Source: Actinomycetota bacterium (GTDB lineage Bacteria; Actinomycetota; Actinomycetes; Actinomycetales; Microbacteriaceae). Taken from it: a stretch of DNA of 64,000 nt. Position numbers and translations under genes: made by a program. The notes under the pieces are model-generated. The model did not search any database and was not told the DNA's origin. It saw only the letters and a program-made list of their open reading frames with translations. The stretch spans positions 310,001-374,000 of the forward strand of contig JAIUPK010000002.1 in the NCBI GenBank assembly GCA_020160915.1. The letters are read 5' to 3'. Positions within the stretch are counted from its first letter, which is position 1, and every line of letters starts with the position of its first letter. This document shows, one piece after another, positions 717 to 58,017 of this stretch.

Positions 717-1646
717 ATGCCTGACGAGACCTACAGCTACCTCGGGCCGGCCGGAACTTTCACCGAGGCCGCGCTCAAGCAGGTGCCGGAGGCTGCGGGT
801 AAGAAGTGGCGCTCGGTGAACAACGTCGGCGAGGCCCTCGACGACGTGATCTCGGGCCGCAGCACGGCCGCGATGATTGCGATCGAGAACTCCATCGAGG
901 GTGGCGTCAGTGTTGCGCAGGACGCGCTCGCGACAATCCCGGGCCTGCGGATCATCGGCGAGTACCTCGTGCCGGTCAACTTCGTGCTGGTGGCCCGGCC
1001 GGGCACGACGCTGGCCGACGTGAAGGTCATCAACGCGCATCCGGTCGCCTATGGGCAGACCCACCGCTGGCTCGATGAGCACCTGCCCGAGCACGGACAC
1101 ATCCCGGCTACGTCGAACGTCGCGGCTGCGGCATCCCTGCTGGAGAGTGACCTTGCGGATGCCGCGGTCGCACCCCCGGGAATCACCGAGCACCACGACC
1201 TCACCGTGCTCGCCGAGGGTATCGGCGACAACCCGAACGCGGTCACCCGCTTCGTGCTGGTGTCGCGCACCGCGCAGCTGCCGGAACCCACCGGCTCCGA
1301 CAAGACATCGATCATCGCCGAGCTGCCGGATGACACGGCCGGGCGTCTGCTCGAGATGCTCGAGCAGTTCGCGACCCGCGGCGTCAACATGAGCCTGCTC
1401 GAATCGCGGCCCATCGGTGACGCCCTGGGACGCTACCGCTTCGTCATCGACCTCGACGGGCACATCCTCGACGAGCGGGTCGCCGACGCCCTGCTCGGCC
1501 TCAAGCGCTTCAGCCCTCACGTGATCTTCCTCGGCAGCTACCCGCGCGCCGACAAGCAGCGCATCACGGTCGTGGAGCGCTACGACAACGACGCCTTCGT
1601 CGACGCGCGCGACTGGCTGCGCGGGCTGATCGTGGGCGAGGGCTAA
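717..1646 (+). CDS. pheA: Prephenate dehydratase (monofunctional)
   Basis: Converts prephenate to phenylpyruvate in phenylalanine synthesis. The 309-residue protein has the prephenate dehydratase fold at residues 1-185 (YSYLGPAGTFTEAAL at the start, IENSIEGG near 57, catalytic TRF at 177-179) and a C-terminal ACT domain from about 196 with the ESRP motif (229-232) used in phenylalanine feedback binding. No chorismate mutase domain is fused, as is usual in actinobacteria. Two in-frame GTG codons lie at 708 and 711, but ATG at 717 fits both the family N-terminus and the leaderless -10 box. It converges on the DUF559 gene. Confidence 0.95.
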   Translation: MPDETYSYLGPAGTFTEAALKQVPEAAGKKWRSVNNVGEALDDVISGRSTAAMIAIENSIEGGVSVAQDALATIPGLRIIGEYLVPVNFVLVARPGTTLADVKVINAHPVAYGQTHRWLDEHLPEHGHIPATSNVAAAASLLESDLADAAVAPPGITEHHDLTVLAEGIGDNPNAVTRFVLVSRTAQLPEPTGSDKTSIIAELPDDTAGRLLEMLEQFATRGVNMSLLESRPIGDALGRYRFVIDLDGHILDERVADALLGLKRFSPHVIFLGSYPRADKQRITVVERYDNDAFVDARDWLRGLIVGEG

Positions 1647-1702
1647 GCGCGCACTCCCCTGGCCCCACCCGCGCCATACCCCACCACCCCACCCCTTCTC
1701 GC

Positions 1703-1760
1703 CGAGTTCGCCTAGGTGCACGGTGTGCCGCGTCCCCAACCCGCCATCTAGGCAAACTCG
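1703..1760. repeat. 58-nt palindromic repeat, copy A
   Basis: Imperfect inverted repeat with 16-nt outer arms CGAGTTCGCCTAGGTG and CATCTAGGCAAACTCG around a 26-nt centre. It is exactly the same length as copies B (2727-2784) and C (24668-24725) and shares their arm consensus CGAGTTCGCCTAGATG. It lies just past the 3' end of the DUF559 gene, between two convergent genes, so it may also act as a terminator. The sequence outside the arm (CCACCCCTTCTCGC) has a related, inverted counterpart outside copy B. Confidence 0.8.
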
Positions 1761-1767
1761 GTGCAGG

Positions 1768-2658
1768 TCACCGCGTCCGCCGAGCGAGCACCGAGCGGAT
1801 GCGAGCCACCAGTTCCACCGGATCTCCGAGATCATCCGCGTTGATCTCCATCACGTACCAGCCCTGCGCCTCGAGCCGGGAGCGGCGCGTCATGTCCTTC
1901 CGCCACTGCGACATGCTGCGGTGGTAGTCACCCTGGTACTCGAGGATCACCTTCGCGTCGGCGAACAAGAAGTCCGGCCGCAGGTGCTTGCCGGTCTCGG
2001 TGTCGACGAGCGTGTGGTTGATGGTCGGCTCGGGCAACCCCGAGACAGCCAGAATCACCCTGAGCCGAGACTCGGGTCGCGACTCGGATGCATCCCGCAC
2101 CAGATCGACCGCACGCCGGGCCAGCCGGATGCCGCGACCCGAGCCCATGAGCGCGAGGCGGCCGCGAATCTCAGCGATCGTCACCCGCGGCAACCGTCGT
2201 GACACGAGGTAGTCGCCCACCGCGACAAGGTCCTCGAGGTCGAGCACCGCCGCCAAGTCGCACCACGTGCGCGCCGGGGAAGTCACAGCAACTCCTGCTC
2301 GGCTCGCGACATCCCCCGGAAGCCGGGTCGTGGAGTGACCGCGGATACCCCGCGCATGCGGCGCGGACTCCGGAGCCGGCACCGAGACATGGACTGAACG
2401 CTCGCGCTCCACATGGGGCGGCAGGGGTGCGCCCCAGAGCATCGCCGCGGTTGCGTGACTGACGATCGCGTCATCCCGAATTCTGAGTGCGATGGTGCGA
2501 CAGCGCGCAACTAGATCCAGGGGTTGGTTCGCGTTCACGCGCATCCCGTAGATCGAGCGGTCGAGGTCAGCCGCCCGGAGCCTGTTACGCGACAGACCCG
2601 AGCCAGCAACGGAAAAGGGCGCCGCAGCGAGGGCAGGCGGCAACGGTGTGCGCTTCAC
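1768..2658 (-). CDS. DUF559 protein: AbiEi-like N-terminal region plus PD-(D/E)XK/Vsr-like C-terminal domain
   Basis: The 296-residue protein belongs to a large actinobacterial family annotated as DUF559 or 'AbiEi antitoxin-like'. The N-terminal half is a winged-helix-like region (VSHATAAMLWGAPLPP near residue 75, then a TSPARTWCDLA segment). The C-terminal half has the nuclease-like core RPDFLFADAKVILEYQGDYH followed by a basic region and LEAQGWYVMEI. The acidic residues of a PD-(D/E)XK-type site are partly kept (D, E), while the usual third acidic position reads Q. No function is established. GTG at 2658 has GAGG 8 nt upstream; ATG at 2700 has GGAG 6 nt upstream and would add 14 residues. 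Copies A and B of the 58-nt palindrome flank the gene, which suggests a mobile or repeat-associated unit. Confidence 0.75.
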   Translation of the reverse strand: MKRTPLPPALAAAPFSVAGSGLSRNRLRAADLDRSIYGMRVNANQPLDLVARCRTIALRIRDDAIVSHATAAMLWGAPLPPHVERERSVHVSVPAPESAPHARGIRGHSTTRLPGDVASRAGVAVTSPARTWCDLAAVLDLEDLVAVGDYLVSRRLPRVTIAEIRGRLALMGSGRGIRLARRAVDLVRDASESRPESRLRVILAVSGLPEPTINHTLVDTETGKHLRPDFLFADAKVILEYQGDYHRSMSQWRKDMTRRSRLEAQGWYVMEINADDLGDPVELVARIRSVLARRTR

Positions 2659-2726
2659 GCCTTCAGCCTCACGAACCCTGCGGTCGCTCGCAGCCGTCAT
2701 CCACAGCTCCGAGTGCATGCTCGCGC

Positions 2727-2784
2727 CGAGATCGCTTAGATGCCCAATGGATGAAGCCCCTGACTGGTCATCCAGGCGAACTCG
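2727..2784. repeat. 58-nt palindromic repeat, copy B
   Basis: Arms CGAGATCGCTTAGATG and CATCCAGGCGAACTCG around a 26-nt centre. Its right part, GACTGGTCATC then AGGCGAACTCG, matches copy C with one substitution over 23 nt. It lies just upstream of the DUF559 start, so copies A and B bracket that gene. A G-rich tract (GGGGGGTGGGGG) follows, as also happens beside copy C. Confidence 0.8.
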
Positions 2785-2822
2785 GCGAAAGGGGGGTGGG
2801 GGCGCGGCGAGAGGGGGTGAGG

Positions 2823-3806
2823 CTAGCCCCGCGGCACCATCACCGTGAGCGCGCCTGCGTCCACCCAGGTGTGCACGGATGCCGCGACCCCGAACTCGTC
2901 GCCGTCGAGCTGGAACTCCTGCGGCACATCCACCGTCATGGTCAGGTCGCGGGTCGTGAAGTAGGTGACGTCGCGTACGTCCTTGGAGAGGTCGATGATC
3001 TTGCGCCCGATCGCCGACTTGCGCAGCACTCCGTTCTCCCACGCGACCTTCTGCCAGACCTTCGCCCAGCCGAACGGTCCGCGGGGTCGCAGGGCTGCGA
3101 CGTCGAGGATGCCGTCGTCGGGCTTGGCGTCGGGCATGAGCAGGAATCCGCCGGGGAGCACCCCGCAGTTGCCCACGATGATGGTGTGCACGTTCATCGA
3201 GCGCACGATCTCGCGATCGAGGCGGAAGTGCACGCGCACCGGCTTCAGCTCCGGAAGCGACCGGGCTATGCCGTCGATGTACGCGAGCCAGCCGACGGCC
3301 TTCTTGAGGCGCGTCGAGGTGTTCTTGATCATCTTCGCGTCGAGGCCGAGCCCCGCCATCACGAGGAATGCGTGCTCGCTCGTTATGCCATCAGGCCGGG
3401 TGATCGCGGCAATTCCCAGATCGATCGGGTGGGCGTCGCCGGTGAAGGCGGCACCGACGCTCGCATCGAGATTCGACAGCGGCAGGTCGAGGTTGCGGGC
3501 GAGCAGGTTGCCGGTTCCCGACGGCAGCACTGCCAAGGGAACGCCGGTGCCCCGGAGCGCCTCCGCGACGGCGCGCACTGTGCCGTCGCCGCCCGCCGCC
3601 AGAACCACGTCGGCTCCGCGGCGCACGGCGCTTGCCGTCACGCCTTGCCCCGGGTCATCCTCGCTGGTCTCGAACCAGACGGTTTCCCCCCAGCCGGCCG
3701 ACTTGGCGGCCGCGGTGACCGACTTGCGAAGCTTCTTGAGCTCAACCTTCACGGGGTTGTAGATGACCGCCGCGCGGTTCTTCTTCCCATCCCGAGGGTT
3801 CGTCAC
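2823..3806 (-). CDS. Diacylglycerol/lipid kinase family protein (DAGKc domain)
   Basis: Soluble lipid kinase of the DgkB/YegS type, probably phosphorylating diacylglycerol or a related lipid at the membrane. The 327-residue protein has a DAGK catalytic domain at about residues 10-140, with the nucleotide-binding GGDGT at 72-76 and LPSGTGNLLARNL near 93. The C-terminal beta-sandwich contains LLMPDAKPDDGILDV and the late LDGDEFG segment typical of the family. The start is GTG at 3806, since no ATG fits the family N-terminus. Its -10 box TACCGT (3814-3819, minus strand) lies 7 nt upstream, so the transcript should be leaderless. It diverges from serS over a 39-nt gap. Confidence 0.88.
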   Translation of the reverse strand: MTNPRDGKKNRAAVIYNPVKVELKKLRKSVTAAAKSAGWGETVWFETSEDDPGQGVTASAVRRGADVVLAAGGDGTVRAVAEALRGTGVPLAVLPSGTGNLLARNLDLPLSNLDASVGAAFTGDAHPIDLGIAAITRPDGITSEHAFLVMAGLGLDAKMIKNTSTRLKKAVGWLAYIDGIARSLPELKPVRVHFRLDREIVRSMNVHTIIVGNCGVLPGGFLLMPDAKPDDGILDVAALRPRGPFGWAKVWQKVAWENGVLRKSAIGRKIIDLSKDVRDVTYFTTRDLTMTVDVPQEFQLDGDEFGVAASVHTWVDAGALTVMVPRG

Positions 3807-23695: not shown

Positions 23696-24589
23696 TTACA
23701 GGGTGAAGTTGAAGACGCTGGTGTCGAAGGCGTTGTAGGCCTCGTAGTCCAGCAGTTCGTACAGTCTCGCCCTCGTCTGCATGTGCTGCACCGATGAGTT
23801 GAGGCTACCCTCGGCCGCCAGCGCGTCAAGACCGCGTTCCGCGGCGCCCATCGCGAGGCGCAACAGCGACACCGGGTAGATGACGATGTTGATGCCGATG
23901 TTCGCGAGCTGGGTGGTGGTGAAGAGCTCGCTCTTGCCGAACTCGGTCATGTTCGCGAGGATCGGCACATCCACCGCCTTACGCACCGCCTCGAACTCGC
24001 CGAGGTCGGCCATCGCCTCCGGGAAGATCGCGTCGGCTCCGGCATCGACGAGGGCCTTGGCCCGGTCGATCGCCGCCTGCAGCCCGTCGACGGCCCGGAT
24101 GTCGGTGCGCGCCATGATGAGCAGGTTCGGGTCGCGTCGGGCATCCGCTGCCGCGCGGATGCGCTTGAGCGCCGTGTCCTCGTCCACTACCGCCTTGCCG
24201 TCCAGGTGGCCGCAGCGCTTGGGGTTCACCTGGTCCTCGATGTGCAGACCGGACACGCCCGCGTCCTCCAGGGTCTGCACCGTGCGGGCGACGTTCATCG
24301 GCTCGCCGAAGCCGGTGTCGGCGTCGATGAGGGTCGGCAGGTCGGTCATCCGGGAGATCTGCTGGCCGCGGGCGGCGACCTCGGTGAGGGTGGTGAGGCC
24401 GATGTCGGGCAGGCCGAGGTCGGCGCTCAAGACCGCACCGGAGATGTAGACGCCCTCGAAGCCCTTGTCCTGGATGAGCTTGGCGCTCAGCGGATTGAAT
24501 GCGCCGGGCATCCTGATCAGCTCGCCGGTGGTGAGGCGCGCACGGAAGGCCGCCCGCTTGTCGGCGGGGGTGACGGTGGAGTACAGCAT
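23696..24589 (-). CDS. prpB: Methylisocitrate lyase
   Basis: Cleaves 2-methylisocitrate to pyruvate and succinate in propionate breakdown. The 297-residue protein of the ICL/PEPM superfamily has the catalytic loop KRCGH (124-128) and metal-site segments DADTGFGEP (90-98) and IEDQ (117-120). ATG 24589 has a GGAG ribosome site 6 nt upstream. The first 16 nt of the gene are repeated exactly at 24765-24780, overlapping the prpD stop. This indicates that prpB once began there, coupled to prpD, before a 175-nt element was inserted. Confidence 0.95.
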   Translation of the reverse strand: MLYSTVTPADKRAAFRARLTTGELIRMPGAFNPLSAKLIQDKGFEGVYISGAVLSADLGLPDIGLTTLTEVAARGQQISRMTDLPTLIDADTGFGEPMNVARTVQTLEDAGVSGLHIEDQVNPKRCGHLDGKAVVDEDTALKRIRAAADARRDPNLLIMARTDIRAVDGLQAAIDRAKALVDAGADAIFPEAMADLGEFEAVRKAVDVPILANMTEFGKSELFTTTQLANIGINIVIYPVSLLRLAMGAAERGLDALAAEGSLNSSVQHMQTRARLYELLDYEAYNAFDTSVFNFTL

Positions 24590-24780
24590 GGGCGGCTCCT
24601 GGGTTGGTGGGTGTCTGGTGGGTGGATGGCGGCTCGCGTGCGGCCGGCGTAGGCTGCCGCACTTCGTCGAGTTCGCCTAGATGACCGGTGTGAGGCTGCG
24701 GCGACTGGTCATCTAGGCGAACTCGCGGGTGGGGAGGGGCGGGTTGGGCGGGGCGGGTGCGGCGCGGTGGAGTACAGCAT
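24574..24780. mobile_element. Small insertion between prpD and prpB, flanked by exact 16-bp direct repeats
   Basis: CGGTGGAGTACAGCAT occurs at 24574-24589 (true prpB start, reverse strand) and again at 24765-24780. The second copy ends at the prpD stop, giving a TGATG overlap on the minus strand. The 175 nt between the copies (24590-24764) hold the 58-nt palindrome copy C, low-complexity G-rich flanks and a new ribosome site for prpB. No ORF of its own is seen, so it looks like a non-autonomous element or a repeat-driven duplication. Confidence 0.65.
24668..24725. repeat. 58-nt palindromic repeat, copy C (perfect 19-bp arms)
   Basis: CGAGTTCGCCTAGATGACC (24668-24686) and its exact reverse complement (24707-24725) around a 20-nt centre. 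It is the best-preserved member of the family and gives the consensus for copies A and B beside the DUF559 gene. It can form a very stable hairpin in the prpD-prpB transcript. Confidence 0.9.
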
Positions 24781-41314: not shown

Positions 41315-41330
41315 GACATGACTCCTTATG

Positions 41331-41371
41331 AGCCAGTCGTGTCTGTCCGGGTACTGGATGCCCTCGTCCGG
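41331..41371 (-). promoter_or_regulatory. Guanidine-III (ykkC-III) riboswitch
   Basis: On the minus strand the leader reads CCGGACGAGG, then CCAGT, GTACCCGG, ACAGACACG and ACTGG. CCGGACGAGG and ACCCGG are the invariant blocks of the guanidine-III class, and CCAGT/ACTGG supplies the variable stem. The ribosome site AAGGAG follows a few nt later, so ligand binding should free translation of the exporter. Recognised from memory of the consensus. Confidence 0.85.
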
Positions 41372-41413
41372 ATGGCGCCTGCCGCCACTCATAACAGGAT
41401 AGCCCTCACACTG

Positions 41414-57921: not shown

Positions 57922-57944
57922 GGCTCAGGCTGAAACGCACATAC

Positions 57945-57999
57945 GAGGTGCGGCAATCAGCCCTTTCTCGCGCTAGCGAGGGAACGATTGCCGCACCTC
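57945..57999. repeat. 55-nt nested palindrome; likely bidirectional terminator or repeat
   Basis: Outer 14-bp perfect arms GAGGTGCGGCAATC / GATTGCCGCACCTC. The loop contains a second perfect hairpin CTCGC-GCTA-GCGAG. It lies between convergent genes. In size and architecture it resembles the 58-nt family, but the sequence is different. Confidence 0.7.
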
Positions 58000-58017
58000 A
58001 CATGAGGCTTGGAAGAC

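Follow-up and report, generated by a model that had tools for sequence, protein, structure and literature searches.

The closest described counterpart of the arrangement analysed here is the REPIN/RAYT system, in which dispersed extragenic pairs of inverted repeats (REPINs) come in more than one class within a genome, with members of every class found beside their own gene as well, and in which genes and repeats persist vertically for long times and co-evolve (PMC3116915, PMC8049555). Among nucleases, MTES_1575 has been described as a Vsr restriction endonuclease (PMC3710099), the DUF559 protein VsrA of Caulobacter is linked to a cytosine methyltransferase (PMC12907096) and the homing endonuclease I-Bth0305I is reported to bind as a dimer to a site of nearly 60 bp (PMC3943268). 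A search of the open literature, with subscription papers and preprints outside its scope, found no link between DUF559 and palindromes of the sort described below, the available parts of PMC12907096 included. Here we report a real and widespread system of genes and palindromes that is REPIN-like in behaviour and is associated with an unrelated nuclease. It is rather probable, in our judgement, that the two parts of this system work as those of REPIN/RAYT do and are built on a different enzyme, a dimer of which would bind, cut and copy the palindromes.

The window, by which we mean the whole analysed stretch of 64,000 nucleotides, contains one DUF559 gene and four palindromes (Table 1). An earlier note on this DNA had described three of them, A, B and C, and re-reading of the sequence upheld all three as real, 58 nt long each and correctly placed, with A directly 3' and B directly 5' of the DUF559 gene and C without a DUF559 gene of its own. 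Its further claim, that the sequences outside A and B are related in inverted orientation, stood only in weak form, as the visible shared part is C-rich/G-rich sequence; a repeat search that did not list this relation also missed the palindromes themselves and so carries little weight. With up to three mismatches, the arm CGAGTTCGCCTAGATG has nine matches in the window, six of which are arms of A, B and C, against an expected 0.49 and a largest count of 3 in 100 shuffled windows. Further 58-nt copies with these arms are found elsewhere in the genome at C5:76820-76877 and, more diverged, at C1:719926-719983. Palindrome D, which is absent from the earlier note, shares its arms with another bracketed DUF559 element in the genome, the second one (C3:341959, locus L083). 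The genome's third DUF559 gene, a distant one (L061, G000:C3:3633 region), is bracketed by longer palindromes of about 80 nt, at 1362-1443 and 2443-2522 of that locus, with arms TCGCGGATCAGGA. An Rfam search gave no match at the palindromes; elsewhere in the window it gave a Guanidine-III riboswitch match at 41329-41391 on the minus strand, barely over the gathering score. A scan of genome contigs for the exact palindrome returned one Streptomyces match, in a collection that may omit the window's own and very near genomes, while a phage search gave one weak match and a plasmid search three Arthrobacter matches.

Table 1. Coordinates of the features in the window.
Feature	Position	Strand	Length	Model score	Remarks
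Palindrome A	1703..1760	.	58 bp	45.8 bits	3' of DUF559 gene, in pheA/DUF559 convergent gap
DUF559 gene	1768..2700 (coding 1771-2700, stop 1768-1770)	-	310 aa		AbiEi-like region and Vsr-like nuclease domain
Palindrome B	2727..2784	.	58 bp	44.5 bits	5' of DUF559 gene, before next gene (presumably kinase-like)
Direct repeat 1	24574..24589	.			CGGTGGAGTACAGCAT; start of presumed prpB-like gene; flanks copy-C insertion
Palindrome C	24668..24725	.	58 bp	47.7 bits	gene-less, between presumed prpD-like and prpB-like genes
Direct repeat 2	24765..24780	.			identical to repeat 1; end of presumed prpD-like gene
Palindrome D	57944..58000	.	57 bp	29 bits	gene-less, convergent gap; arms those of element L083

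The nuclease-like C-terminal domain that had been read into the protein was recovered by Pfam as a DUF559 match (E 1.4e-5, above the Pfam cut-off), and the same C-terminus matches REase_MTES_1575 at E 0.0008, below the cut-off of that family; the protein falls in the same Vsr-like domain family as the DUF559/REase_MTES_1575 nucleases. These two were the only Pfam families found at E<=0.01, with no known transposase family among them. In front of the nuclease domain, residues 71-152 match AbiEi (PADLOC, E 1.9e-10), a likeness to the AbiE type IV toxin-antitoxin systems, from which the locus differs in that no AbiEii-like gene lies next to the DUF559 gene, its neighbours being pheA and, beyond palindrome B, a gene that we take from its sequence to be kinase-like. 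An AlphaFold2 model built from 49 sequences (pLDDT 93.8) has as its best PDB fold match the catalytic domain of I-Bth0305I (3r3p; E 4.8e-4), with a TM-score of 0.80 by target and of 0.28 by query, the latter because the alignment is confined to the C-terminal part, and a profile search against the PDB gave 3hrl at E 4e-4 and 3r3p weakly at E 0.06. When the first 42 rows of profile A2 are counted, the seven most distant of its 49 being left out, residues E210, D243, H260, D269 and R272 are each conserved in 41 or 42; with all 49 rows included, the only invariant ones among the five are D243 and R272. E210, D243, H260 and D269 are putative counterparts of the EDxHD residues of I-Bth0305I. A Vsr-like catalytic domain and a reported dimer target of nearly 60 bp, against a dyad of 58 bp here, liken the system to the EDxHD homing endonuclease, as would the four conserved residues if they are these counterparts. 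It differs in the AbiEi-like region in front, in the dyads on both sides and many scattered copies, and in that the DUF559 locus showed neither an intron nor an intein.

A protein search of 27 genomes of the genus gave matches in 17, with one to nine in each and some genes counted as two pieces. Among the 45 homologues at E<=1e-17 with sequence of both flanks, 25 lie between two palindromes, 14 are flanked by a single one and 6 by none, so that the palindrome-gene-palindrome unit proposed earlier is also an arrangement of related genomes. At least one palindrome is present at 39 of these 45 loci against 7 of 295 control windows from the same loci, which far exceeds the background and supports the suggested clustering beside DUF559 genes. 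Fourteen more distant homologues of the genus have palindromes on both sides in two cases, on one side in four and on neither in eight. Similarity between the left flank and the inverted right flank reaches 30 or more in 30 of the 45 loci and in 26 of 1000 cross-locus pairs, and the arms match between left and right inside a locus and differ between loci, even within one genome. Palindromes of about 55-62 nt flank many of the homologues on either side; the cores of 78 candidates, chosen with a preference for a GAG start and a CTC end where available, measure 56 nt in 29 and 55 nt in 15.

The association was found again in other genera; by the earlier note, its absence from related genomes would have refuted the link. 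Profile A2 (49 members) picks up relatives in 209 of 296 genomes of the class; for the family the figure is 148 of 199, and both counts speak to the protein alone and not to palindromes beside the gene. For the palindromes, loci were taken as the best-scoring ones returned and are not a random sample: in a first set of 29 loci from 29 genomes of the family (17 genera), 18 have palindromes on both sides, 10 on one side and 1 on neither, with a control of 10 in 174 windows. A second set of 29 loci comprises 13 inside the family (both sides 10, one side 2, neither 1) and 16 outside it (9, 5 and 2, respectively), with a whole-set control of 7 in 174 windows; its cross-locus control was uninformative (maximum 85). 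Eight of the 16 outside loci come from a single outgroup family, f38 (L337, L340, L345, L347, L349, L351, L355 and L357), and have the outer palindrome motif GTTGATCATGG instead of GAG.

As to their anatomy, the half-sites of 48 palindromes of four classes carry 1.2-1.9 bits at positions 1-22, 0.8 at positions 23-24 and 0.15-0.5 at positions 25-29, and the central 6 nt resemble each other no more than shuffled sequences do. Pairing between the arms holds in 90.9% of cells, and their covariation greatly exceeds that of slid controls, which dyad symmetry alone would also produce. Model matches inspected in the genus-wide list measure 57-58 nt; the constant length is partly built in, because scans for single palindromes looked for 57-59 nt only. 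In two 400-kb stretches, of genomes G021 and G022, all 30 dyads scored are intergenic, in sequence that is about 85% coding by a simple gene caller, and they lie in 15 convergent, 14 tandem and 1 divergent gaps (three unrelated hairpins were removed beforehand; the 30 include two dyads beside an element). One base-shuffled sequence of 400 kb contained no dyads, which argues against an origin by chance. Whether pairing as a hairpin is itself a selected feature receives mixed evidence. Across 18 elements, the two arms of a palindrome differ by 2.19 per 16 positions, against 2.22-2.28 for arms of the partner palindrome, while four sets of solitary palindromes have a modest excess of arm-arm matching (P 0.11, 0.002, 0.001 and 0.06, one set mixing sub-classes), which selection on hairpins would fit equally well. 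We lean towards double-stranded half-sites as the relevant feature.

The gap between pheA and the kinase-like gene holds a bracketed DUF559 gene in 7 of the 27 genomes and measures 5-185 bp in 19; in G004 it has 721 bp and no DUF559 gene. Filled and empty pheA loci thus both exist, and the gaps are too diverged for homing to be traced in them. In G003, for instance, the pheA site is empty, and a relative of the pheA-locus element with 53% identity lies elsewhere in the genome. The 185-bp gap of G008 (L133), which lacks the gene, contains a lone arm CGAGTTCGCCACTTCTGCC, perhaps the remnant of a lost element. The DUF559 proteins differ more than the core proteins do: G014 and G019 are 96% identical in four core proteins and 60% in their DUF559 proteins, and the sisters G021 and G022 are 91% identical in core proteins and 69% in DUF559 proteins. 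The arms follow, as arm distance tracks protein distance across 22 elements (Mantel r=0.51, reached in 0 of 5000 permutations; the statistic ignores phylogeny).

Copy C lies between two genes that, by reading, we take to be prpD-like and prpB-like, and it had been regarded as an inserted, gene-less derivative of the unit. This proved well founded, since the stop-start junction of the two genes is intact in 23 of the 25 genomes with the prp gene pair, and the insertion in the window is bounded by an exact 16-nt direct repeat (Table 1). The two remaining junctions are enlarged, by 191 bp in the window's genome and by 89 bp in G022, where the palindrome is a different one, of the class of G022's own pheA-locus element, and the flanking repeat has about 6 bp; the direct repeats of the two insertions hence differ in length (16 bp and about 6 bp, two cases only). 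The junction is empty in G021, the sister of G022 (local support 1.0). Because of this empty sister junction, the two insertions are most simply independent, and the junction could be a hot spot. A search of the genome for a donor of the insert around C found none; apart from the known dyads with some flank, it gave four weak short matches.

For palindromes without a gene, a covariance model was built from 24 palindromes of six genomes and run over the 27 genomes. Matches, counted on both strands, number 93 in G022, 81 in G021, 60 in G023, 50 in G024, 25 in G000, 20 in G003, 17 in G014, 15 in G019, 14 in G007, 9 in G004, 8 in G016, 3 each in G013 and G008 and 2 in G018; the numbers are minima, and a zero need not mean absence, because 150 of several hundred first-look candidates were scored per genome, and palindrome D, for instance, is missing from the match list. 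A match at E<0.01 is found in 13 of the 17 genomes with a DUF559 homologue and in none of the 10 without, five of which have one match each at E 0.1-0.6. The exceptions among the 17 are G012, which lacks a match in spite of four homologues, G025 and G002, which also lack one and have a single weak homologue apiece, and G018, whose matches are all weak. Since 14 of 15 carriers form one clade in the tree, the fifteenth, G025, being weak, presence and palindrome number are confounded by descent, and the identity of the arms is a better test of the link between gene and palindromes. Under a rule of 57-58 nt and at most 4 of 18 mismatches to any of 24 elements, 28 of 30 solitary palindromes of G021 match a compared element, all 28 being nearest to an element of their own genome, and in G022 26 of 29 match, 25 of them nearest to an own element; for both species the sets cover only some of the genome. 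Of 13 in the window's genome, palindrome D included, 6 match; five of them fit its own elements and one fits that of G014, and most others fit no compared element. This stricter recount is preferred to a looser earlier one (29 of 30, 25 of 29 and 5 of 12), which had included one match 8 mismatches away in G021 and one 6 away in the window's own genome. Solitary palindromes that match no element are other classes or unrelated hairpins. Two similar neighbouring hairpins of G022 (C1:949327 and 949497, L285; arm CGGCGTTATCGAAACCACGCC) apparently belong to another repeat family.

The same two sister genomes also contain sites at which the arms have changed in place. Within the 400-kb stretches, some orthologous gaps hold palindromes with different arms, such as GAGGTGCCCACTTCGGTGGGT against GAGTTGCCCACTTCGGCCAGT or GAGTGATGCCATTTGGCTGC against GAGTGTGCCGATATGGCTGC, and six switched pairs were obtained once further loci had been added, two more pairs returned by the script being set aside as false by judgement. 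In all six pairs the arm classes agree, provided that GAGTGTTCCGAAAGTGCCG, a sub-class of G022, is assigned to L064. Four sites (three by script, one by eye) are shared within the stretches among the 11 dyads of G021 and 19 of G022; most dyads are unshared or not comparable, and some face dyad-free gaps, e.g., 960235, 1121526 and 1184218 in G022 and 1030253 in G021. The two arm types are set by elements that are themselves orthologous between the genomes (L079/L080 and L069/L064); some sites are therefore inherited with arms that change as the protein does, and other sites are gained and lost. Arm change along with the protein at inherited places is an addition to what the earlier note had proposed, and simple insertion is an insufficient account of it. 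Similarity of the loops is not significant in the six pairs (P=0.13; P=0.004 with eight pairs, including the two judged false), and for this reason loop homology was set aside.

The earlier comparison with RAYT/REP pairs, in logic though with another protein family, fits these results well, both in the bracketing and in the cognate arms of solitary palindromes. Extragenic inverted pairs, class-specific arms beside a cognate gene, persistence and co-variation of gene and arms are seen here too. The differences are the linked gene, which here encodes a DUF559 Vsr-like nuclease, the core of mostly 55-56 nt (44 of 78 candidates) and the outer motif GAG, where the title of PMC3733652 names GTAG or CGTC tags. 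The DUF559 system is set apart from REPIN/RAYT because no Y1 HUH (RAYT-type) transposase (PF01797) was found in the 27 genomes of the genus, while the control was positive in 5 of 14 named genomes; under a stricter classification it could be a variant of the REPIN/RAYT kind.

The data show directly that the gene is bracketed, that arms match, that dyads have entered an otherwise intact junction, that some orthologous places have kept theirs and that arms and protein vary together. Binding, cutting, copying or mobilisation by the protein and the mode of arm renewal are what we infer from them. In the mechanism that we propose, a dimer of the DUF559 protein would bind double-stranded DNA at both half-sites of a dyad, the target being two inverted half-sites of about 22-24 bp around about 10 poorly conserved bp, and would cut or nick the centre. 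Dimer binding and central cutting form the leading candidate mechanism because of the predicted I-Bth0305I-like fold, the reported dimer target of nearly 60 bp and the conserved residues. Repair of the break templated by other dyads may occasionally put a new dyad into intergenic DNA, such as copy C or the G022 insertion, and dyads once placed could be inherited for long, with arms that change as the resident protein alters its specificity. A further-reaching reading, to which we give slightly less than even odds, is an independently evolved counterpart of REPIN/RAYT in a large part of the class, whose dimeric homing-type nuclease would maintain and multiply 58-bp dyads by break and repair and re-tune them as its specificity shifts.

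Clearly less likely, and the strongest competitor, is that the dyads are a network of binding sites for the DUF559 protein as a regulator, chromosome organiser or self-marker, with selection keeping the sites and new ones arising by ordinary insertion or duplication. Six dyads that stay at orthologous places while their arms switch, conserved arms around an unconserved centre, sites by gene ends (29 of 30 outside divergent gaps) and the AbiEi-like region would all suit such a network. Antitoxins of the AbiEi family bind inverted repeats. It fits less well with a gene that is itself bracketed in many genera and has 0 to 9 matches per genome, with the empty pheA locus of G003 and its element relative of 53% identity elsewhere, with nuclease-type residues nearly invariant in close relatives or with two prp-junction copies that are insertions with flanking repeats.

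Improbable by comparison is a selfish gene resembling a homing endonuclease gene, which would cut related sites and have itself and both dyads copied into the break, solitary dyads being remnants of deleted elements. The best fold match is indeed a homing endonuclease domain, the gene-less pheA gap of G008 has what may be a remnant arm and G003 has a same-clade element at another place; however, solitary dyads are whole units of 57-58 nt (in a scan limited to 57-59 nt) and outnumber the compared elements by 28 to 3 in G021 and 25 to 4 in G022, the prp-junction copies leave no room for a gene remnant, and neither intron nor intein was seen at the locus. Still less probable are transcription terminators that are alike by chance, even though the palindromes lie near gene ends (15 of 30 in convergent and 14 in tandem gaps) and could form strong hairpins. 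In window positions 1500-3000, which cover A and B, no hairpin followed by a U-tract was found; by the earlier note, copies that are ordinary terminators without mobility would have refuted its reading. Each class has its own arms, and these agree with the resident element, which terminators do not need, and copy C breaks a stop-start junction. Together with the lack of any within-palindrome excess in the 18 elements, set against some excess in the solitary sets, this led us to reject terminators as the primary origin. Ordinary REPs or REPINs moved by a RAYT, with DUF559 as a bystander, are resembled in extragenic placement and paired inverted repeats, yet RAYT action in trans was rejected and deserves hardly any credence, as PF01797 occurs in 0 of 27 genus genomes and the arms match the flanking DUF559 elements.

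DUF559 relatives are present in 209 of the 296 sampled genomes of the class, and there is little on DUF559 in the open literature. The link to dispersed palindromes, if true, would give DUF559 nucleases a testable substrate, and the sister species with switched arms are a natural test of joint change in a protein and its many sites. The dyads would account for one class of the palindromes that lie between genes in these genomes. Such a link would also show that the REPIN/RAYT way of life, in which a gene and its scattered repeats change together and persist, arose at least two times with unrelated enzymes.
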